From Pegea sp. RAD2-039 (lineage: Eukaryota; Chordata; Thaliacea; Salpida; Salpidae): a stretch of DNA of 64,000 nucleotides. Under the pieces are notes generated by a model that worked only from the letters and a program-made list of their open reading frames with translations, made no database searches and had not been told where the DNA came from. Positions 16,924 through 59,986 of the stretch are shown in pieces (the stretch's first letter is position 1; each line of letters starts with the position of its first letter). The stretch is from positions 2,046,001-2,110,000 of the forward strand of contig JAQGEQ010000071.1 in assembly GCA_034620365.1 (NCBI GenBank). The letters are read 5' to 3'. Made by a program: the position numbers and the translations under genes.

Positions 16924-19443
16924 TCATGTCGATTCTAATCCATTATTTTCATAAAACTTCGACGGTTTTACTAAACCCTCCTTGTAAACCCTTAAAATCG
17001 CTTCGCAAACAAATTTAAATTGTCCAGGAGTTTGTATCATCATTGCTCTTTGATCGCGCATAGAACGCGCGATTTGAACCGGATAAACTGGTTGGTTCTC
17101 TTCTATTAAACAAAGAGCTGTTTCCATGGTGATAAGAACACCGGTTCGACCAATACCAGCGCTACAATGAATAATACATGGTGACGTCATACTTTCGCGA
17201 TGGTGTCGAACTCTAAGAACAAAATCAAGAAAATCACTGGAGTCATCCGGGACTCCGTGATCAGGCCAAGCTATATATTGCATTTGTTTGATTCTTCGGG
17301 TCTCATAAGATGAATCATCATCTGTTATATAATGCAGATAAAAGTCCCGATATGCAAATGATTCATTTTGTTCCTCTGAAATTGATTCAACGACAAAATT
17401 CCCAAATCTTTCAATATTTTGATAATTTGGCCAATATTGAAAGCATTTAGAACGTCCTCTTTCCATTAAAGCTGTCAGCATCACTATAAAAGATGTATTT
17501 TGTTCCCAAACCATCAACCAAAAGTCCACTGCTGTATTCGATAAAGGACCTTGGCAAGCGATATAATGACTTGTTGACGATGAAATTTGCATATTGACGT
17601 AATTAGCGTTGATGTAATCATTATTAGAATCTTGTAGCTTGACCCTCGTGTCATCATAAGGTGATATATCTCTGTATCGATTCTTAGATAGGTTTTGGTT
17701 GAGTCTAGCGTTCTCGAAAGTTCCGTCTGGTTTTCGGCGATATAATTTTTCAAACATATGCAAAATATCATCAGTTTCTATCAAATTTTCCAACCACTCC
17801 ATAGACTTCATTAACTGATCCTCATCATCTGTTATTTGATCTTCATATAAATCCTCATCTTGATCATCAAGAAATTTCTCAAGGAGCAAAGTTAGATGCC
17901 CCGTATGACTTTCACGAGTTGATTGAATAAATCTGACGATTTGATCATGAGTATGATGAGATACATCTCTACCATTCACTTGCAGTAACCTATCTCCTAC
18001 TTGTATTGGAGGGGTGGATTTGGAAGCAGGCAGACCTTTAGCTACTTTGGAAATTGTAATTGGCATATCTTGATCAAAGCCACCTTTCACATTAAAACCA
18101 TATCTATCAGCTTCATCTGCCTCTAATTGGATTAAAACAACATTTGATGAAGTTCCATTTCCAACAGCAAACTGTTGAGGTTCAATTGTTGATATTTCAG
18201 TGGATTTATGAAGGTGTGAAGGTTCAGGAACATCAAATTTGTGATATTGGATTGGCAACATCACAGGAGTGGGCAGCCTTTCTGTACTACTTGACTTCTG
18301 ACTTTGTAGTGACTCTGACGATTGATGTAAGACATCTACATCATTTGAAATATTTTCACAATGATTCGAATTTATTAGAACTGAATTTTGAGAACTACAA
18401 AAATGGTCATTTTCATTTGTGGGATTTGAAATTTGGAATTTTGGATCAGAACTACCTTCAGCATTTTTCTCATCATTTTGCTGATGTGTACACAAATTAT
18501 TTAAACACTTAATTTGTCGATAGAATGAATGAAAATCAACACAACTTTTCCATAAACGTTTACAACAACGATAATTATCCATATGAAAAGTTGTAATTAG
18601 ATTAGTAGGTTCTGCTTGATCTAACGGAGACTTTAGGTGAATAAAAAATTGTTTCCTTTTAAAAGAAATCTTAATTATAGTTGACCACTTAAACTGTTTT
18701 GTTGTAACATCATTTCTTTTGATAATAATTCCATTTCCATCAACACCAATATCAATTTTATAATCTTCAGAATCATATCCAACATGAATTTCAATTCCAT
18801 ACATAGAGACTTTTTGAGCTGTTTCAATGTATTTAGTAGCAGCTTGTAGTGGAGACAACCCTAAATTTAACTTATGCATTTCTTTAACTTCATTTTTAAA
18901 CTTTTCGGTTTGCTCTGGGACAAATCTAAAAGCTGAAACATAATTTTCACAATGAGTATTTTTATCATAATCCCCAAGTTCAGACTGAAGAGCTAATCCT
19001 GATAATATAACAGCAACCTCAGAAGAACAGTGCAACCGTCTCTCCAACAAATCTAACTTTAATTGAAGATATAAATTAAATAAAGTCAAATCTTCTTTTA
19101 ACATTGAAATATCAGTTGCATAAAACTTGATTCTTAGAAATAAAATGAAAGGGTATCCACGCTTGAACTGTTTTCGAATAGATTTTGATGGATCTAACCA
19201 TTTTAAGGTATCAGGAATATTATTTGGAAACTGAAGTCCAAAAAACTTTATTTCTCCAATCTTGGCATGCTGAAAAACTAAATCCAAGAGAACTTGGCCC
19301 CTATCTCTTTTGCTGATTTTAAAAACAACTTCACTCTGATCCAACAGAACAACAGATACATTCACTGTTGAATGCTTTTTTTCATGCTCAAAACTTGAAA
19401 CATTAAATGAATCTTCATGAAAAACGTTTTTCACAGAACTCAT
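16924..19443 (-). CDS. PTPN4: FERM-PDZ protein tyrosine phosphatase, PTPN3/PTPN4 type, intronless
   Basis: One uninterrupted 839-residue frame. A FERM domain with its FA extension occupies about residues 30-310, a Ser/Gln-rich linker 320-420, a PDZ domain about 435-525 (GFNVKGG, PITISKVAKGLPAS, VGDRLLQVNG), and a PTP domain about 570-830. Catalytic elements look intact: the pTyr-loop region NRYRDISPYD, the WPD loop (AWPDHGVPDD) and the P-loop HCSAGIGRTG, with a Q-loop match (QTPGQFKFV). This order is specific to PTPN3/PTPN4, cytosolic phosphatases acting at membrane-cytoskeleton junctions; vertebrate proteins are ~910-930 residues. The absence of introns is striking, because comparable neighbours are cut every 100-200 nt. 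It could be a retrocopy that stayed functional or a lineage-specific intron loss. An acceptor-like AG lies 24 nt upstream of the ATG. PTPN3 versus PTPN4 cannot be decided. Confidence 0.95.
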   Translation of the reverse strand: MSSVKNVFHEDSFNVSSFEHEKKHSTVNVSVVLLDQSEVVFKISKRDRGQVLLDLVFQHAKIGEIKFFGLQFPNNIPDTLKWLDPSKSIRKQFKRGYPFILFLRIKFYATDISMLKEDLTLFNLYLQLKLDLLERRLHCSSEVAVILSGLALQSELGDYDKNTHCENYVSAFRFVPEQTEKFKNEVKEMHKLNLGLSPLQAATKYIETAQKVSMYGIEIHVGYDSEDYKIDIGVDGNGIIIKRNDVTTKQFKWSTIIKISFKRKQFFIHLKSPLDQAEPTNLITTFHMDNYRCCKRLWKSCVDFHSFYRQIKCLNNLCTHQQNDEKNAEGSSDPKFQISNPTNENDHFCSSQNSVLINSNHCENISNDVDVLHQSSESLQSQKSSSTERLPTPVMLPIQYHKFDVPEPSHLHKSTEISTIEPQQFAVGNGTSSNVVLIQLEADEADRYGFNVKGGFDQDMPITISKVAKGLPASKSTPPIQVGDRLLQVNGRDVSHHTHDQIVRFIQSTRESHTGHLTLLLEKFLDDQDEDLYEDQITDDEDQLMKSMEWLENLIETDDILHMFEKLYRRKPDGTFENARLNQNLSKNRYRDISPYDDTRVKLQDSNNDYINANYVNMQISSSTSHYIACQGPLSNTAVDFWLMVWEQNTSFIVMLTALMERGRSKCFQYWPNYQNIERFGNFVVESISEEQNESFAYRDFYLHYITDDDSSYETRRIKQMQYIAWPDHGVPDDSSDFLDFVLRVRHHRESMTSPCIIHCSAGIGRTGVLITMETALCLIEENQPVYPVQIARSMRDQRAMMIQTPGQFKFVCEAILRVYKEGLVKPSKFYENNGLEST

Positions 19444-21612
19444 TATGTTTAAACATTAAAACAAATCTAAAAAGATAAATATTTATAGTTGTATTCATAT
19501 TTAGTTTTATAATTCTTTACAAGTAAATTTGACAAATTTGTGGTTTTTAAATCAAAAGTAATAAAATATAGAAAATAAATTATTTAAGCAATACAAAAAA
19601 TAGTTTAAATGAAGATATGAATGAATTATTTAAAAAATTATAAAATAAATTTAGTAAATTTATAGTTCAAAGAATTGAGTGAGAAGGTGTGTTAGTGAGA
19701 GGTGCTCTCTTCAGCTACCCTCCTTCACATTTATTGAAATAAATAAATAAATAAAAAATTATTCTTTTAATATTATAAAAACTTCTGAAATAAAATTATA
19801 AATAGTGATAAAATTTCAAAACATAAAAAGTTAACAAAATCCAAAATTGAAAAGTTAAGTTTTTAAATTATAACTAACAATAGAATTATGAAATTGTAAA
19901 AAATAGAATTATGAAATTGTAAAAAATCACAATTACACCTTAGCACTAAAAACATCAAAAGTTAATTTTTTATACATTTAAAGAAAAGGCTGCAATAAAA
20001 AAAAAGAATTAAAGAAAAAAAACAAAAAACAAATATAGGTTTCATACATAATGTAAATAAATGAATAAATTCAAAGAATGTAAACGTAAACAAATAAAAA
20101 TAATTTTTTTATAATAATTCTTTTTTAATGTAAGAAGACTAGTTTTCAGATTACTAATAATTCAGATTAAAAAAACTTTAAAATACGATTTTGGTCAAAA
20201 AAGCAAAACAAAAACTTTAATCAAAACAATTTCAAAGTCAGTAAATGTCACAATCAGCTTATTGTAGAAAAACTACCTAAGTTGTTGATACCTATGAACA
20301 AAACACTTTATAGAACTAGAAATAAATATTTGAAGTTTGAAAAACACTAAAAGAATTTTAAGATAAATAAAAATAATATTTTTTTGTTGGCATTTGATTC
20401 AGCTGATATATTGTCGATGATTTTATGGTTTGTCAATTAGTCTCAAAGCAGTCAAGAAATTAGCTGGGCGTGTAAAAACGGCGCTGTCATTTTTTAACAA
20501 CTTTGCTTTTGTTTATTATTAATCATCAGAATTATAATTAATTATATCAAAATTTATCATCAAAACCAATTTTCATAATCATTAAATCTCAAAATATAAT
20601 TAATTACAAACTTAATTTAATATTATACATATTTCATAAATTTGTATTGATGGGGATAACATTCAAATTAATATTTATTTATTTTCTTATAAAATAAAAA
20701 CTTTAGGCAAAATCTTAAAAAAGAATTGTTTAGAAATTTCCCAAGGGTAAAGCTTTAAGAACTATGTTTTCTTCTTTTGAAATAATTTCCCCTTTGTGTA
20801 TAAAACGATTATCTAATTTTTAGTAATTTCTAAGTTTTATTTCATTTTGACATCTACTGATTAAAAAGAGTACTGCATAGAGTGAGTTTAAATAAAAGTG
20901 TATCTTTTATGGTCAAATATAGCCACAAGTAATACAAACATTAAATTATTTAGGTGAATTTTTTATTCTATTTTAGACTTAAATGCTTAACACTCATAAA
21001 AGTTTTTTTCTACAAATATATTTGTCTCATTTGTTTTTAATGAAAGGTTTAATTTCTAATATAAACAAAACTTGTTTCCAATAAATTTAAAGTTTCATTT
21101 AATTTTCCAATAATACTTTACCGAAAAGCTTTTAAGATTCAGAACTAAAGATTAATCTTTTTATGCAATCTCTTATAGTTTAAAGATATAATTATGTATT
21201 TTACAACCACAGCTAGTATTATTTATAGAAATTTAATACCAACAACTAAGTTTCCGTCTAGCAAAAAAAACATAAAGTTAAAACTTTGAATTGAAAGGTT
21301 GATTCCAAGATTTAGTAAAAGCCAGTCTGGGTAATTAAACTGTTTAAATTTGCATATCAACTATAAGAAAAACTAAATTTTAATTCATATTAGTTTTTAT
21401 ATAAATGCTATAATCGAAATATAAAGCAAACTTCAAGTTTATAACTATATAATATATATTTCTAAGAATTTAAACAAGCTTTTCGAACCCCATTGAATGG
21501 TCGATATTTGTTGTCAAAATTTGTTTGAAACTCATTTAAAACTTTCAATTGTATATAGTAAAACATACCGCTTGCTAAATTAGTCGAATTTATTCAATGA
21601 CTATTTCTTGTC
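19444..21612. other. AT-rich spacer upstream of PTPN
   Basis: Very AT-rich with poly-A/T runs and no supported exon. It contains the LINE stub at 19687-19758. Confidence 0.45.
19687..19758 (+). mobile_element. Solitary LINE 3'-end stub with (AAAT)n tail
   Basis: Matches the 3' UTR end of fragments A and B (gtgtgttag, hairpin gagaggtgctctc, then ctccttc) and runs into five or so aaat repeats, which look like the tail at insertion. It is probably an extremely 5'-truncated LINE insertion and shows where the family's transcript ends. Confidence 0.8.
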
Positions 21613-23177: not shown

Positions 23178-26177
23178 TTAATGTATCGTATATATACGGC
23201 CTTCTATTAAAGGTTGAATCTGCCATTTCAATAGCTCGGATGTTTGTGATCTTTCTTTTAATAATTGTTCATTAATAAAATCGTTTCTATCACGAATAGG
23301 AAATTGATGCTGAGTAAAGTTTAATGGGGGAATAAAATTAGGAGTGTGGATAGGTTGGTTTTCATCTACTTCAATTGGTGATTTAGGTCTAGGTGTGCTT
23401 GTATCACCATTTCCATCATTTGGACTGATAATGCTTTTAACATCTCGTTGTACTATGTCCAATGGACCAGCAATTTCATTTATATCAGAAATTGTAAAAG
23501 CTTCATTTATATTTCGAATATTTGCAGAACTTGTAATATTTTTTCCATCTTGTGAAATGAAAACCTAAAAAAATAAACTGAATACTTAACTACTTCAATA
23601 ACTACATCATCAACTACTTCATCAACTACGTCATAAGCTACTTCATCAACTATATCATCAACTACATCATCAACTACGTCATTAACTATTTTATCAACTA
23701 CATCATCAGCTACATCATCAACTACTTCATCAACTACATCATCAACTACTTCGTCAGCTACATCATCAGCTACTTCATCAACTACATCATCAACTACTTC
23801 ATCAACTACATCATCAACTACTTCGTCAGCTACATCATCAGCTACGTCATCAATTACTTCATCAACTACTTCATCAACTACATCATCAACTACATCATCA
23901 ACTACATCATCAACTACATCATCATCTACACCATCAACTACTTCTTCAACTACTTCGTCAGCTACATCATCAACTATATCATCAACTACATCATCAACTA
24001 CTCCATCAACTACATCATCAACTACTTCGTCAGCTACATCATTAGCTACATCATTAACTATTTCATTAACTACATTATCAACTACTTCACTAACTACTTC
24101 TTCATCTACGTTATCATCTAACCTGACACGAGTGTTTTTCTTCAAATTTCAATAGCTTGTTAACATTCATGATATGATTACGAACAGCAGTTGATAATAA
24201 AGGGCCGGAATCTGGGTCTGTTAAAACTTTACAGTTTTTGAAACAGTTATATCCATCTTTTCCACGAGATACGTAAGACTTTGTTGCCAATCTATACTTT
24301 GCTTTCAAGTCAACTTTTTTTCCACTTATAAGAACACTTTCAACATTAACTCTTTCACCTTTTTCAGCATTTTCGTTAAATCCAAACGACAAGTGAGAAA
24401 CCTGCAAGCAATCAAATCACTGCCACTAATGAGCATATGACGTCACAAACCTGTGGATAGCGGCCATCTTCACTTGGCAACCGGCTGACACCATTTTCAA
24501 GACCTTCAACCAACTGTTGCCCAGTTACTTCAATTGTTACAATCGTGTCTTTAATTGGTAGAATTGTGAGAACATCACTTAATAAAAATTTCCCTTCTTC
24601 ATGTATTCGATCTGATCTAAACGTCCCCGAGTTGATGAGGACTGCGTCTGCCTGTGTGATCGTTGCCATGACATCAGCGACGAAATTTCCTAGTATTGTT
24701 TCGCGTGTTCGAACCATATGTGATCTGCCATCTAGTGGCGACTTTAAAGATGTTTTTTAGTTGATTACTTTCAGTAATGGGAAATTACCTTTATAAGCCC
24801 TATACTAATACTAAAACTTGCTTGTAAGGCTTTTTGATATTGTTCGATTAAATCCAACATTTCGATGTCAGGTTGTGACGTCATATCGATGCTGTGACGA
24901 GTCACTACGTGTTCGATCGACGAATCGTATTTGAGTGCGATTCGAAGCTCAGAAAAATCAAAAAAGTCTGTTCCCGATTTGATGACCAGAGAGTCTGAAA
25001 CAAATTGGTTGCAGATGGTTTCTAATGGTGCAGATGGTTGCAGATGGTTTTGAATAGTTCGAATAAATGGAAAACGCTTTTTTCAACTTACTTTTTCCTT
25101 CATAGAATCCATAGTCATGGTCATGACCTCCAAGAACCAAATCAATTTCTGAAACTTCATCACTTAATTTTTTATCATTTGGCCATCTCATATGTGTTAA
25201 GGCAATTACAATATCAACATCTGATATCTAGAAACAAATATATTTGAAATACAAAACATCTATAAAAATAAACTCAAAAAAACTCAAGAAGTGAAGAAGA
25301 TTCAAAAACATCAACAAACGAAACCAAACCTCTCGAAGCTCTCGAGCCAATTCTCTTCCCACTTTAACAAAATCGAAATATTCTAATTCATGTCTTTCAA
25401 TTGTCGTCAACGTTTCCAACCATTCCTCTTCGACTAAACCAATTAATCCAATCTAGAAGCGATGGCATCATCATGTACATCATCAAATATTCAAATTACC
25501 TTCAAGCCATTCTTCATTTGAACAATTTCGCTTCTTTTTCCTTCAGCTAGCAATCTACCTGTCAATTTATCTATCACATTGCTTAGCAACCAGCGCGAAT
25601 TCATTTGTTCGATGCAATTAACCGCATGTTTGACGCCGAAGTCGAATTCGTGGTTTCCAAACACGCAAACATCTACCTGAAACTCAACTTACTAAAATGG
25701 CTTTTTATGAAAATGGCCTGACTCACTCCAATCAAATTAAAGATTTTTATCATGTGACTTCCTAGAGTGGCGCAACTCAGTATCGAAGGGTTCAAGCAAT
25801 CGCCACTAAACAGCACTAGAGGTCGCTGTCCTGTTTGGGACTCAATCGTGTTTAATCGCGCTTTAAAAGCGGCTGTAAATCGTGCAACACCGCCCTGTTT
25901 ACCACCGATGACGTCATAGACATCATTAAAGTGAAGAATACTAAACTGGCCGATTGATTTCTGAATTTAACGATTTAGCGATATGCAAATCAGATGTAAA
26001 TGAGCTTACTTTTAGTTTTTTTTTTACTTCAGAAGTTTCAGGATCGATTTGAGGGAATTCGCATGAACTTTCCGGCCAAGAACTTTCACTATTCTCGAAA
26101 TCGGTGACGTCATCGTAATTTTGAAGTAAAGCAGTTTGGAATTGATGATCGAGTGATGATGACGCGCAGCCCATCAC
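23178..26177 (-). CDS. 5'-nucleotidase / metallophosphoesterase family protein
   Basis: Nine exons (minus): 26010-26177, 25727-25960, 25500-25676, 25330-25452, 25092-25227, 24789-24994, 24451-24741, 24123-24401 and 23178-23564, giving ~665 residues. The N-terminal metallophosphatase motifs are present: LHFNDVYD, FSGDCLNPS, FGNHEFDFG, ALTHMRW and GGHDHDYG (the dinuclear metal site). A C-terminal 5_nucleotid_C domain follows (DGRSHMVRTRETILGNF, INSGTFRSD, GKDGYNCF). The protein therefore likely hydrolyses nucleotides or related phosphate esters. Unlike CD73-type ectoenzymes it has no signal peptide. It starts MMGCASSS, or MGCASSS from the second ATG (26174), a pattern compatible with myristoylation plus palmitoylation. 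It also carries a ~130-residue non-conserved tail. The nearest family may be cytoplasmic UshA-like proteins of invertebrates; the substrate is unknown. A 12-bp minisatellite fills the last intron. Confidence 0.9.
23585..24118. repeat. 12-bp minisatellite in the last intron of the nucleotidase gene
   Basis: About 45 copies of variants of actacatcatca (plus strand), with cttcat and cgtcag substitutions in a higher-order pattern. On the minus strand the array is open for about 200 codons as VVDD/VVDE repeats, in a different frame from the flanking exons. It begins within a few bases of the donor of the penultimate exon and ends about 20 nt from the acceptor, so the 558-nt intron is almost all repeat, roughly ten times the usual intron length here. 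Confidence 0.95.
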
Positions 26178-39989: not shown

Positions 39990-40370
39990 ATGAAATCTAT
40001 AATCTTTACTCTACTGATCGTCATCATTGGATGCTCTCTAAAGGTTGCCTCATCAGAAAAAGTCTGGGCATGCGGAATCGAGCTCACTAGAAGATGGAGA
40101 GATGCTTGTAAAGAAAGTCATTATCATAACAGTTTAGTGGCTTTAATGCAAAGAATTTTACTAAAATATAGAAGGTCTACAAAGGAGTTAAACCATCATA
40201 CGTAAGCTAATTTCTTATCTTTTGTTTCAATTAATTATAATTTTGATTTTTATAGAAAAAGAAGTGCTAGACGAAGAATAAAAAAGCGTTCCTTAAGTCA
40301 AGATTGCTGTGCCAAGGCTTGCACATATGAACATATTCAACGAAATTATTGTCACCGTTTTCGTAACTAG
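39990..40370 (+). CDS. Insulin/relaxin-like peptide ILP1
   Basis: Two exons, 39990-40201 and 40256-40370 (phase-2 intron), encode 108 residues. A hydrophobic signal peptide (residues 1-22) is followed by a B chain with C-x11-C (VWACGIELTRRWRDAC), which retains the CG start of insulins. A C-peptide rich in basic pairs ends KKR, and the A chain reads QDCCAKACTYEHIQRNYC. Dibasic sites (KR, RRR, KKR) support processing to a two-chain secreted hormone. The A chain follows the family CC-x3-C pattern, but the last spacing is nine residues instead of the canonical eight. Six cysteines in all. A polyadenylation signal AATAAA lies at 40550. The receptor (insulin/IGF RTK or relaxin GPCR) cannot be told from sequence. 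Confidence 0.9.
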
Positions 40371-47835: not shown

Positions 47836-48336
47836 ATGAACAAAAGGTTGTTCATATTTTTATTTCTTATCTCACTTTGCAGTTTTATAGAAAGTCAAAA
47901 TTCAACTTTCTTCAGTAGAAACCGAAGATCTATTCCTCAAATGTTCTGTAGTAAAGGTTTCAATCAAAATATCAAAAAGTTTTGTGTCAAAAAACAACAA
48001 ATCCAACTAAAAAAGATTTTTATAACCTCCAGGATTAGACGACTCTTATGCAAATATAGTAAGTCAGTTGTTAAGTTTTTGACAAGATTCCTTTTCAGAT
48101 TGTTTTTTAGGTAATTCAGTCTTGACAAACAGATTTTTGACTTCTATTGGTATTTCTTATAGAGATTTATGCTTGAGAAGAAGAAGTAGGTACGTTTGTT
48201 TATATTTACTCCTGAAATTGTATAAAAAAAGTGTTGTCTTTTAGTGTTGTTTTTACTGATTTTTAGGACTGCAATCAGAAACAAATGTTGTTATCATGGA
48301 TGTACCCTACGAGAGTTTAAGAGGAAAGCATGTTGA
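47836..48336 (+). CDS. Relaxin-like peptide ILP2 with two extra cysteines
   Basis: Three exons, 47836-48058, a 25-nt micro-exon 48165-48189, and 48267-48336, with intron phases 1 and 2. The product (~105 residues) has a signal peptide (MNKRLFIFLFLISLCSF), an N-terminal RNRR site, a B domain C-x11-C (FCSKGFNQNIKKFC), then LLCKYNLCLRRRSR, and an A domain IRNKCCYHGCTLREFKRKAC ending at the stop. RIRR and RRRSR are likely furin sites. The A chain is relaxin-like (CCxxGCT), with nine residues before the last Cys. The middle Cys pair occupies the place of the four-Cys module of ILP3/ILP4 and has the same intron phases. An alternative acceptor/donor pair (donor near 48111, acceptor at 48162) is also phase-consistent, so the middle exon is less certain. 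Confidence 0.82.
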
Positions 48337-49831: not shown

Positions 49832-51022
49832 TTAAATGCCGAGTTGGTCCTCTTGGTGACTTCTACAAGCTTTTAGTAATGCCAATATCGAGCAACCTTC
49901 AGAACAGCAGCGTTCAGCGACTCTACAGTTTCAGAAAAATCATTCTTAAACAATTTGAATCACAAAATATTGTAAAATTATTTAAAAAATAAAATTTATA
50001 TTTTATTTAAATAATATTTATACAATTCGTAATATTGAAAAGATTTTATATTTTAATAGTTTGATTTTTTAGATTTTTTTAATTTATTATTATATTTAAA
50101 CTTATGAAATTTGTCAGATAAAATATAATAAAAATATATTAGTTATTTATCAGATAATACAAGATATTATTATGAAAGGTTAAAAAGATGTCCTAATAAA
50201 AAGTAATTTATGTTTAAGATATTAATCAAATTACAAAATAATTATTTATAATTTAAAATTGATAACTTACGAAGTATAAGAAAGATTTTCACAAATATAA
50301 AACCAACCCTCTTTTGGTTCAACTTCTTTACAAAGAGGAGAATTTTCTGAAATAAAATTGAAAATGTTAAAATCTTCTAAGAAATGAAATTTAAGTATCA
50401 TTTTGAGGGTTCTAGACTTGATTCAAACTTGGAGATATTTGATTAACTTTATATTAAATTGATTTTTATATAAAAAATTTAGATAATTTTAAATCTAGAA
50501 AAACTAATTAATAATAAAAATTTTAAAAGAACTAAAAAATAATTTCAATTTGAGTAAAATCATTTTAGAAAGTCATTGAAAGATGAAGAAGCTCAGGAGT
50601 TATCAGAAGATGAAGATTTTAATGTGAAGAGTTTTTATTTATTGTTGATCTTTAAAGATATTTATATTTTAAGACTTTAGTTGATTTTTGATGACATCAA
50701 ATTTTGGGTTCTTTGTAAATTTATAGAAACCAAGAATTCAAAATATGAAATCAAGAACTTCAAACTGAGATCTTTTGTTTAAAAGTAATTAATAAATTAT
50801 TGTGATCTATTTCTAAATAAAATTTAAACAAAAAGAACTTCTTTTACCATATTTACAACAAACTTTTAAAACATTTAGAGCTTCAAGATTTTTAGAGCAT
50901 TGTTGACTAAGTATCTCATCAAATTCATTTCCACAGATTTTCTTGGTTAGTTGACTTGGATTTTTATCAACAGTTAAAGATTGAACAATAAAGAAAAGGG
51001 CAAAAAATAAAAGAAATTTCAT
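49832..51022 (-). CDS. Ten-cysteine insulin-like peptide ILP3
   Basis: Three exons (minus): 50848-51022, 50271-50346 and 49832-49922, with intron phases 1 and 2. The product has ~113 residues. A signal peptide (MKFLLFFALFFIVQSL) precedes KK and the B domain, C-x11-C (ICGNEFDEILSQQC). An additional module follows (CCKY at the end of exon 1, the rest on the 76-nt exon 2), spaced CC-x7-C-x12-C and ending WFYIC. The A domain on exon 3 is ERCCSEGCSILALLKAC, a full match to the classical insulin A-chain pattern, with a short tail. No dibasic site lies between B and A, so the product may stay single-chain, like IGF. Retaining intron 2 would give a stop right at the donor and a protein lacking the A domain. 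Gene orientation and exon plan match ILP4. Confidence 0.85.
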
Positions 51023-52442
51023 TTTTAAATCATAAGTTTAAGGCAAAAATTCCTTAAACAAAATAAATTTATGACAACTGAATTTTGAAACAAATAATCA
51101 AATATTTTATATTTGTTTTAAAGAAAAATAAAAATGATAATTCAAGTATTTTAAAATCTAGATTAATATTTATATTAGATTTAAAATCTACAAATCAAAA
51201 TAAAAATCATTGATTTATCATTATAGAAATTAAAAAAATAAATAAAAATAAGAAAAAATGATTAAAACTTTATTGATCTTTTTGACTTTTCAAAATTTTC
51301 AAACAAAAATCAAATCAAAATATTATTGACATTTGCCTCAACAGATGAAGATTAAACATCTTTAACTTTGTTTCATTTATATAAAAGTCAATTACAAGAT
51401 TTCAGATTAACTGAAGCATGACGACAAAAATGTTTGTCTTCGAAAACAAAATGGCTTTTCTCCTGAAAGCTCTAAGCAAACGCTGCAAAAACAAAACAAT
51501 GAATTTTCCTTGTTTTAAAAGTGGAGTTTCGTAAATTTTCAAAATTGATGCCTATTTTTATATGGTTAAGGTTTTAATTATTAATTATAATTTCATATAT
51601 CTCTTTGTGTTGATAGCAGGTGACTTTTTTTCCAATTTTGTAAAAGCTTTAAAACTTTAAAGTTCTTGAATTTATCATAATTATTATAAATCTCTACTTT
51701 TAATTTTCTTTACCATAATTAAAATTTCTAAGACTTGTTTTGAAACAAATAATTGCCTTTTAACTTAAATAACTCTCAAATCACTAATTTTTTCATTATT
51801 ATCGATCTGAATTCAAACTAAATTCAAAATGTTAAAATAAGTTTTTTCCTAAATTCTATTTTCATTTTTTTTATATTTATTATTATAAGTTTTTAAATTA
51901 AATCTCCTTAACAATCGATTATAATTATATATTTAGGATTATTCATATTTGCTTGATAAAAACTGTAGTTTTACCATTACTTTCTTTTATCTTCATCACA
52001 TCATCATGTGATATGTTAAAAACTACTTTTAACTCTTTAGCGACACCTTCAGGATGAAAACTTTTTTTTCAACTTTCTTTAGTTACTTTAAAACAGTCAA
52101 CTAATTAACAAACTAATCATTCATAAGATTAATTTTAATGAAGTATCAATTTAAACACAGACTTTAATTTTCTTTTTTCAAAACAGATTTGGAAACATAT
52201 AAATTTTTCAAAATATTTTATTCACATCAAATATAAAAGAAATAAAAGAATTTTTTACATTTTCTAAAAGATATTTTGTAAACTCCGCTATTGATTTGAA
52301 TCTATATATTTTATTCAATTTTTACATTTCAGTATAATTTCTAAAATAGTTTAAATCATTAACAACAACAAAAACAGTTTAATAAACAACTTGATAAAAT
52401 TATTTACATTTAAAAATCATTTACATCAATTAAATGAAAAGA
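51023..52442. other. Spacer between ILP4 and ILP3
   Basis: AT-rich. A small exon-like island at 51410-51540 is open on both strands (minus: acceptor tttttgcag then RLLRAFRRKAILFSKT) but has no insulin-type cysteines. It is unassigned. Confidence 0.4.
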
Positions 52443-52869
52443 TCAAATCCTGAAACATGCAGCAGAAGCTTCGATCAAAGAACACTTTTCTTCGCAGCAT
52501 TTGTTTCTGATATCCCTAAAGCAAACAAAATTAGAAAGTATCTAATAAAAATGAAGCAACAAACTCGATGGTCGTTGAAGAAGAACAAACAAATCTCCAC
52601 TGAGCTGGTGAAAGGTGGCTGGTGCAATATTGTGACTTTTCTAAATGTTTAAACCAATTAAAAAGAGTATTTAAAAGTTTAATCTTACCATATTTGCAAC
52701 AAATACTGTAAAACAGGCGGACTTTCTGTCTATATTCTACACAATTTTCTAAGAAATTAGCAAACTTGGATCCACATACATATTCAAAAACTGACTGATT
52801 TTGTTCTTTACTTTGTATCAAATCAAAATGTTGAACAACGAATAACAAAAGAATTATTTTGAAAAACAT
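52443..52869 (-). CDS. Ten-cysteine insulin-like peptide ILP4
   Basis: Three exons (minus): 52689-52869, 52565-52640 and 52443-52515, with phases 1 and 2 as in ILP3 and an identical 76-nt middle exon. I take the ATG at 52869 because a signal peptide (MFFKIILLLFVVQHFDLIQS) starts there; the frame is open upstream. The B domain is CGSKFANFLENC (ten residues between cysteines, one fewer than usual). The extra module is CC-x7-C-x12-C with SICCKY and WRFVC. The A domain is IRNKCCEEKCSLIEASAAC, with canonical CC-x3-C-x8-C spacing. No dibasic site lies between B and A. The second intron relies on a weak donor (GA|GTTTGT), though phase, exon length and homology to ILP3 all support it. The IRNKCC start of the A exon is shared with ILP2. 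Confidence 0.8.
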
Positions 52870-59293: not shown

Positions 59294-59986
59294 ATGGAAA
59301 ACAAAAGTTCCACTTATAAATCAAATGGAGTAAAAAAAAATGGCAAAATTTGTAAAACACCAAAAAAAAAACCTTTAATCAAATGTGAAGACCTCAAAAA
59401 ACCTTTGAAAAGATTTAATGGGTTAAGTTTGGAAGAAGTGATGAAGATGAAGTTGTCTGATCGATTGAAAGAAGATCTTGATATTTTGTTTATTGGAATA
59501 AACCCAAGTCCTCTAGCAGCTTTTAAAAATCATCATTATGTAGGAAATAATCACATGTGGTCTTGTTTGAGTTTATCAGGGTTAGTAGATGAAGGTACAA
59601 CAGCTGAAGATGATATTATTTTACCAGATAAATATCAAATTGGTTTTACTACTATGGTGAAGAGATCAACAAAATGTCAAAATGATTTAAATCAAGAAGA
59701 GTTTTTAGAAGGTGGAAAAAATTTGCTGTTAAAAATTCAGAAATTTAAACCAAAAGTTTCGGTTTTTAATGGAAAAAAAATTTATGAAATTTTTCTAAAA
59801 AAAGTTTTAAAAATGAAAAAAATGAAAGTTGAGTTTGGAAAACAGGAAGTTGTGATTCCCGGATGTGATACAAAGATTTATATGATGCCTTCAACAAGTG
59901 CTTTGTGTGCCACTTACCCAACAGCTAATCATAAATTACCTTTTTTTAAAGAAATAAAATTATTAAAAGAGGAATTAAATAAATAA
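59294..59986 (+). CDS. TDG: G/T mismatch-specific thymine-DNA glycosylase
   Basis: Single-exon frame of 230 residues; vertebrate TDG is ~410 with long flanking regions, so this is close to a bare catalytic core behind a ~40-residue Lys-rich start. The match runs from RFNGLSLEEV through DILFIGINPSPLAAFKNHHY and the GNNHMWSCLSLSGL block to IGFTTMVKRST, EEFLEGGKNLL, VSVFNGKKIYEIF, and MPSTSALCATYP near the end. The catalytic Asn in GINP and the MPSxSA insertion loop are kept. The usual HHYPGPGNHFW is shortened by about two residues to HHYVGNNHMW. The expected role is nuclear base excision repair of G:T and G:U mismatches. The gene is intronless, unlike most neighbours. The ATG at 59294 is the first in frame. 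Confidence 0.93.
   Translation: MENKSSTYKSNGVKKNGKICKTPKKKPLIKCEDLKKPLKRFNGLSLEEVMKMKLSDRLKEDLDILFIGINPSPLAAFKNHHYVGNNHMWSCLSLSGLVDEGTTAEDDIILPDKYQIGFTTMVKRSTKCQNDLNQEEFLEGGKNLLLKIQKFKPKVSVFNGKKIYEIFLKKVLKMKKMKVEFGKQEVVIPGCDTKIYMMPSTSALCATYPTANHKLPFFKEIKLLKEELNK

Follow-up and report, generated by a model that had tools for sequence, protein, structure and literature searches.

Six cysteines are the defining feature of the insulin superfamily. Two genes (ILP3 and ILP4) in the window, by which we mean the whole 64-kb stretch of contig C1 analysed here, appear to encode insulin-like precursors with ten, the additional four forming a CC-C-C module between the B and A segments. The locus raises the question of whether the module is truly part of these genes and, if so, what it would become in the hormone. 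We rebuilt the splice borders and translations of the four insulin-like genes in the window (ILP1 to ILP4) from the DNA (Table 1).

Table 1. Exons of the four insulin-like genes, in window coordinates.
Feature	Position	Strand	Content
ILP1 exon 1	39990..40201	+	Putative signal peptide and B segment CGIELTRRWRDAC; LLKY in place of the LLCKY of ILP2; neither module nor phase-1 intron
ILP1 exon 2	40256..40370	+	Entered in phase 2; holds multibasic sites along with A segment CCAKACTYEHIQRNYC
ILP2 exon 1	47836..48058	+	Putative signal peptide, B segment CSKGFNQNIKKFC and LLCKY, with one cysteine where CCKY of ILP3 and ILP4 has two
ILP2 middle exon, 79 nt	48111..48189	+	One module cysteine, then RRRSR
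ILP2 exon 3	48267..48336	+	A segment CCYHGCTLREFKRKAC and stop
ILP3 exon 1	50848..51022	-	Putative signal peptide and B segment CGNEFDEILSQQC; ends in the module CC (CCKY, phase 1)
ILP3 middle exon, 76 nt	50271..50346	-	Module cysteines 3 and 4
ILP3 exon 3	49832..49922	-	A segment CCSEGCSILALLKAC and stop
ILP4 exon 1	52689..52869	-	Putative signal peptide, B segment CGSKFANFLENC and module CC
ILP4 middle exon, 76 nt	52565..52640	-	Module cysteines 3 and 4
ILP4 exon 3	52443..52515	-	A segment CCEEKCSLIEASAAC and stop

All four introns of ILP3 and ILP4 run from GT to AG, with phases 1 and then 2 in each gene. ILP3 has introns of 348 and 501 nt; those of ILP1, ILP2 and ILP4 measure 48 to 77 nt. 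The ten cysteines fall at residues 30, 42, 55, 56, 64, 77, 89, 90, 94 and 103 of ILP3 and at residues 32, 43, 57, 58, 66, 79, 92, 93, 97 and 106 of ILP4. Spacing between the B cysteines is x11 in ILP3 and x10 in ILP4, and both genes have the module CC-x7-C-x12-C and the A segment CC-x3-C-x8-C. Their N-termini are strongly hydrophobic (maximum 10-residue Kyte-Doolittle means of 3.31 for ILP3 and 3.05 for ILP4), and the putative signal peptides are assigned by hydropathy. The rebuilt models agree with the original prediction of two ten-cysteine precursors with an extra CC-C-C module, and the arrangement it described, a module spanning the end of exon 1 and a 76-nt middle exon with phases 1 then 2, is the same in both genes. 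At the level of sequence, ILP3 and ILP4 are confirmed as real three-exon, ten-cysteine insulin-like genes with the extra module.

As a chance control, we listed all candidate exons between exon 1 and the A exon that are bordered by AG and GT and open in the right phases, using dinucleotide shuffles for comparison. The real sequence holds three open candidates for ILP3 and two for ILP4, with the reported exon among each set. A candidate with CC-x7-C-x12/13-C arose in 1 of 2000 shuffles of the ILP3 stretch and in 4 of 10000 shuffles of the ILP4 stretch; the spacing was chosen post hoc, so these counts are a guide and no test. Independent and stronger support for the predicted module than the shuffles is provided by six paralogues outside the window.

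The genome comprises 105.7 Mb in 387 contigs, and the window is AT-rich, with a GC content of 22 to 35% in 4-kb steps. Connexins (PF00029) are abundant, with 54 exon-level matches (best 2.4e-36), and L051 looks by eye like the N-terminal part of a connexin. COX1, innexin (PF00876), arthropod cuticle protein (PF00379) and nematode cuticle collagen (PF01484) had no match; the last three negatives are weak, as the control genomes gave no signal with these profiles. Connexins are not known outside vertebrates and tunicates, and the size of the genome, its AT content and the short introns of ILP1, ILP2 and ILP4 fit a tunicate, although ILP3 and L006 have longer introns; the animal is probably a tunicate. 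Xenoturbella was considered as a source and rejected, its published GC content being 43% (PMC11521371). A genome search for CCKY followed by a donor site, tolerating one mismatch, gave ten places. Besides ILP3 and ILP4, these were four further insulin-like genes (L004 to L007) and four places that are not insulin-like (L008 to L011). Using the L006 protein as query, we found two more genes, L029 and L036; L006 had no match in viral contigs. The pattern matches rejected as not insulin-like were L008, L009, L021, L022, L023 and L024, with L010 being the place of L021 and L011 that of L024. Because the control for one pattern matched 20 places compared with 9 for the pattern itself, that pattern alone proves nothing; genes were accepted on full B, module and A segments, not on a pattern match.

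In all six paralogues (L004 to L007, L029 and L036), the module lies at the same place, with introns in phases 1 and 2. L004 and L036 are located near 3.13 Mb of contig C1, and L005, L006, L007 and L029 near 4.20-4.22 Mb, so that the ten insulin-like genes found are all on this contig, at about 2.09-2.10, 3.13 and 4.20-4.22 Mb. The full module is present in eight of the ten, ILP2 having half of it and ILP1 none. What had been presented as a peculiarity of two genes is thus a feature of most of the family members found, and whereas the original prediction had named absence of the module from close homologues as evidence against it, six further genes within this genome have it. The last spacing of the module is x12 in ILP3 and ILP4, x13 in L004 to L007 and L029, and x14 in L036. 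The introns of L006 measure 406 and 125 nt. A phase-1 intron between B and A is found in ILP2, ILP3, ILP4 and the six paralogues and is absent from ILP1. When used as a query, ILP3 found itself alone; such searches therefore miss distant members, and ten genes is a lower bound. ILP4 is 18 to 28% identical to its seven aligned rows. A tree splits ILP2, ILP3 and ILP4 from the rest (support 85/96); with no starred branch and a long-branch warning, it is too weak to order gain and loss of the module.

One further candidate, L041 (contig C15, 451606-451674), is a lone A-like motif, CCLIRCKLRQLRVFC, near a stop. It scored 19.1 bits with PF00049, which is below the cut-off, and scanning roughly 10 kb of its surroundings and upstream sequence for motifs revealed no B exon with a signal region; it was left uncounted. 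At about 4199830-4201690 of contig C1, minus strand (loci L029, L032 and L038), the B segment of an insulin-like gene is preceded in exon 1 by a long repeat of the TTTLPTTTEG type. The reading frame shifts within this repeat, so that either the assembly is wrong at this point or the gene is broken. The window itself also holds, on the minus strand, a gene for a FERM-PDZ-tyrosine phosphatase (16924-19455; best PDB match PTPN3) in one intronless open frame of more than 800 residues and, on the plus strand, a single-frame gene of the Uracil-DNA-glycosylase superfamily (59294-59986; PF03167). A 12-base tandem repeat with some 44 copies occupies 23588-24120 and forms open frames on both strands. 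Scanning the window with Rfam and for tRNAs gave no hits.

ILP1 and ILP2 show what the family looks like with less of the module. ILP2 has the three-exon layout and phases 1 and 2 of ILP3 and ILP4, with two module cysteines instead of four; the first and third are missing, and the six canonical cysteines are kept. ILP1 consists of two exons separated by a phase-2 intron. It has several multibasic sites and, with all four module cysteines missing, the ordinary set of six; its whole protein matches the Pfam Insulin profile (PF00049, E=1.4e-06). The signal regions of ILP1 and ILP2 contain one additional cysteine each. The lack of a phase-1 intron in ILP1, together with its LLKY in comparison with LLCKY in ILP2, looks like the remnant of a loss.

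No match to PF00049 at E<=1 was obtained for any of the six module genes scanned (ILP3, ILP4 and L004 to L007, that is, all but L029 and L036). A profile built from the family alignment matched PDB insulins with E values of 0.15 and worse; the top four rows of this search were insulins, an insulin-like A chain and IGF-II, and an unrelated nuclease followed with a similar E. The insulin identity of ILP3 and ILP4 is therefore owed to cysteine layout, gene structure and paralogy, not to the Pfam profile. Filed by paralogy and layout, the two predicted precursors are a divergent variant of the insulin superfamily. Like the insulin/IGF/relaxin superfamily (PF00049), they have a hydrophobic signal region, a B segment of the form C-x10/11-C, an A segment of the form CC-x2/3-C-x8/9-C and a phase-1 intron in the connecting region, reported as a typical trait of insulin-like genes (PMC8286064). 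Unlike other members of the superfamily, eight genes here have an extra four-cysteine module between B and A. The relaxin subfamily is described as having RxxxRxxI/V in the B chain (PMC551602), and there is no arginine between the two B-segment cysteines of ILP3 or ILP4.

Extra cysteines are known elsewhere in the superfamily. Nematode beta-type insulins have an extra disulfide in the insulin frame, and in nematode and mollusc forms alike the known extra bridge is a single one that lies within the B and A chains rather than in an intervening module, whereas two bridges are predicted in the module here. Against the nematode beta-type profile PF03488, ILP3 scored 11 bits with a cut-off of 21 (E=0.46), and ILP4 had no match. 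Mollusc insulin-related peptides are reported with extra disulfides in the insulin frame (PMC12343078). The original prediction cited eight-cysteine forms from nematodes and molluscs; to these should be added the octinsulins and multinsulins of ambulacrarians, which it did not name and which are described as insulin-related precursors with eight cysteines (PMC8286064). As judged from that description, they resemble ILP3 and ILP4 in having extra cysteines but have eight in total and one extra bridge. An octinsulin-like pattern is in print for Xenoturbella, and the known exceptions to the six insulin cysteines, as portrayed in the available text, add one bridge. Among tunicates, three insulin-like genes are reported in Ciona and two in Chelyosoma; the available description, on which alone this comparison draws, mentions no extra module (PMC4361685). 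In the available text of the open-access literature searched, we did not find a four-cysteine module between B and A of an insulin-like precursor (searched papers include PMC9545775, PMC8286064, PMC10972341, PMC11521371, PMC6586643, PMC8557429, PMC12343078, PMC8398477, PMC4361685 and PMC551602).

The predicted processing of the precursors differs across the family. As the original prediction had it, ILP3 and ILP4 have no dibasic site between B and A: a residue scan found no two consecutive basic residues anywhere in this stretch in ILP3, ILP4 or L036. The stretch is 46, 48 and 73 residues long in these three genes, and 10, 3 and 8 residues, respectively, follow the last cysteine. IGF is a single chain in which the C domain is retained, and it is the nearest functional comparison for the module. 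Like IGF, the three precursors are predicted to form a single chain; unlike in IGF, their B-A stretch would hold two disulfides. The remaining five paralogues have a multibasic run downstream of the last module cysteine, namely RKKR in L005, L006 and L007, RKRRKR in L029 and RR in L004. A cut at these sites, between module and A, would leave the module on the B chain. The proposal that the module is kept in a single-chain hormone thus fits ILP3, ILP4 and L036 only, and the other five would yield a two-chain hormone with the module on B.

ILP2 is also informative about disulfide pairing, as it lacks exactly cysteines 1 and 3 of the module. Cysteines that are lost together were probably bonded together, and this one gene suggests C1-C3 and C2-C4 pairing. 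Since the canonical six are intact in both of the genes that lack module cysteines, ILP1 and ILP2, the module probably forms a closed unit next to a normal insulin core.

Conservation of the module is seen at long range. Distant genes keep the module cysteines, so selection is visible there only and not in close pairs. Between L006 and L007, exon 2 (the module exon) is 79% identical and the introns are 91% and 98% identical, and among L005, L006 and L007 the module exon is conserved no better than the introns. Neither codon-position counts nor the exon-intron comparison among close paralogues indicated that the module exon is under purifying selection. L006 and L007 are 95 to 100% identical in intron 2, exon 3 and the 3' untranslated stretch. 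The L006/L007 contrast may reflect either gene conversion at the 3' end or rapid change of the module exon.

Several other readings of the module have to be weighed against these data. It could be an artefact of the gene models, with the middle exons not spliced in or intron 1 of ILP4 retained. That intron is 48 nt long and in frame, without an in-frame stop, so its retention would leave the frame intact, and the intron 2 donor of ILP4, GTTTGT, is a weak point of the model. The equivalent intron contains in-frame stops in ILP3, L004 to L007, L029 and L036, however, and cysteine pattern, phases and borders are alike in eight genes, in addition to the shuffled controls; we regard an artefact as extremely unlikely. 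A different possibility is that the module cysteines bond with B or A cysteines in a rearranged fold, CC-C-C being a second, competing A domain. The claim that the module imitates an A chain is borne out by the order of its cysteines. When we scored each module against its own A segment and against 500 composition-matched shuffles per gene, the number of shuffles scoring at least as high as the real module was 4 for L005, 23 for L006, 14 for L007 and 21 for L029, a weak likeness within one close clade, whose members are not independent. For ILP3 (451 of 500), ILP4 (304), L004 (431) and L036 (91), in contrast, there was no likeness to the A chain beyond cysteine order. Moreover, the canonical six persist where module cysteines have been lost, and the phase-1 intron interrupts the module two codons past CC, whereas the A segment is whole within its exon. 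Such a position favours an origin of the module by growth out of the connecting region to either side of the intron over copying of the A exon. A competing A domain is thus improbable in our estimation.

The module might instead be cut at both ends and freed as a separate two-disulfide peptide beside a canonical insulin-like hormone. ILP2 has RIRR just ahead of LLCKY and its RRRSR behind the last module cysteine, and each of L004 to L007 and L029 combines the multibasic run past the module with a QR that lies one or two residues ahead of CC; L004 has RR within the module as well. With such sites the module might be released or cut, and the QR could mark a monobasic cut that frees it. Convertases act poorly on a lone R, however, and ILP3, ILP4 and L036 lack any two-basic run between B and A, making release rather unlikely as a general explanation. 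Finally, the module may have no role in the mature hormone and be kept only as an aid to precursor folding. Its absence from ILP1 and halving in ILP2 would fit such a dispensable part, as would a module exon that diverges among close paralogues as fast as or faster than introns. We consider this very unlikely, since the four cysteines are kept in eight of ten genes despite the low identity of ILP4 to its aligned rows.

We favour a reading in which the module is a domain of the hormone itself. The sequence shows that the connecting region between B and A carries the four-cysteine module CC-x7-C-x12 to 14-C, with a phase-2 intron ahead of the A domain. The module would fold as a compact unit with the two internal disulfides C1-C3 and C2-C4, leaving the three canonical insulin disulfides untouched and giving five disulfides in the hormone. 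It may act like the retained C domain of IGF, providing extra contacts or selectivity at a receptor of the insulin-receptor type. A candidate insulin-receptor-like gene (L012) has two Recep_L_domain stretches and a Furin-like stretch. More Recep_L_domain genes, perhaps EGF-receptor-like, lie on contig C13 at 249956-250434 and 285735-286013 (L013-L015). Judged from gene models and domain matches, we give about even credence to the view that ILP3 and ILP4 belong to an expanded family, in a probable tunicate, with a two-disulfide module in the connecting region that has an IGF C-domain-like role at the candidate receptor. More tentatively, and with somewhat less than even confidence, we suggest that in this probable tunicate lineage the connecting region evolved into a self-contained domain with two disulfides that is retained in the mature hormone, yielding a five-disulfide insulin with a second folded, receptor-contacting unit on the B chain, and that ILP1 reverted to six cysteines by loss.

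A gene family whose members have two predicted extra bridges at a new site, in what is probably a close relative of vertebrates, would demonstrate that a folded domain can evolve from the connecting region of an insulin-like precursor. The genes also form a natural series, with no, half or full module and one or two chains, for probing the function of the IGF C domain and the proinsulin C-peptide.
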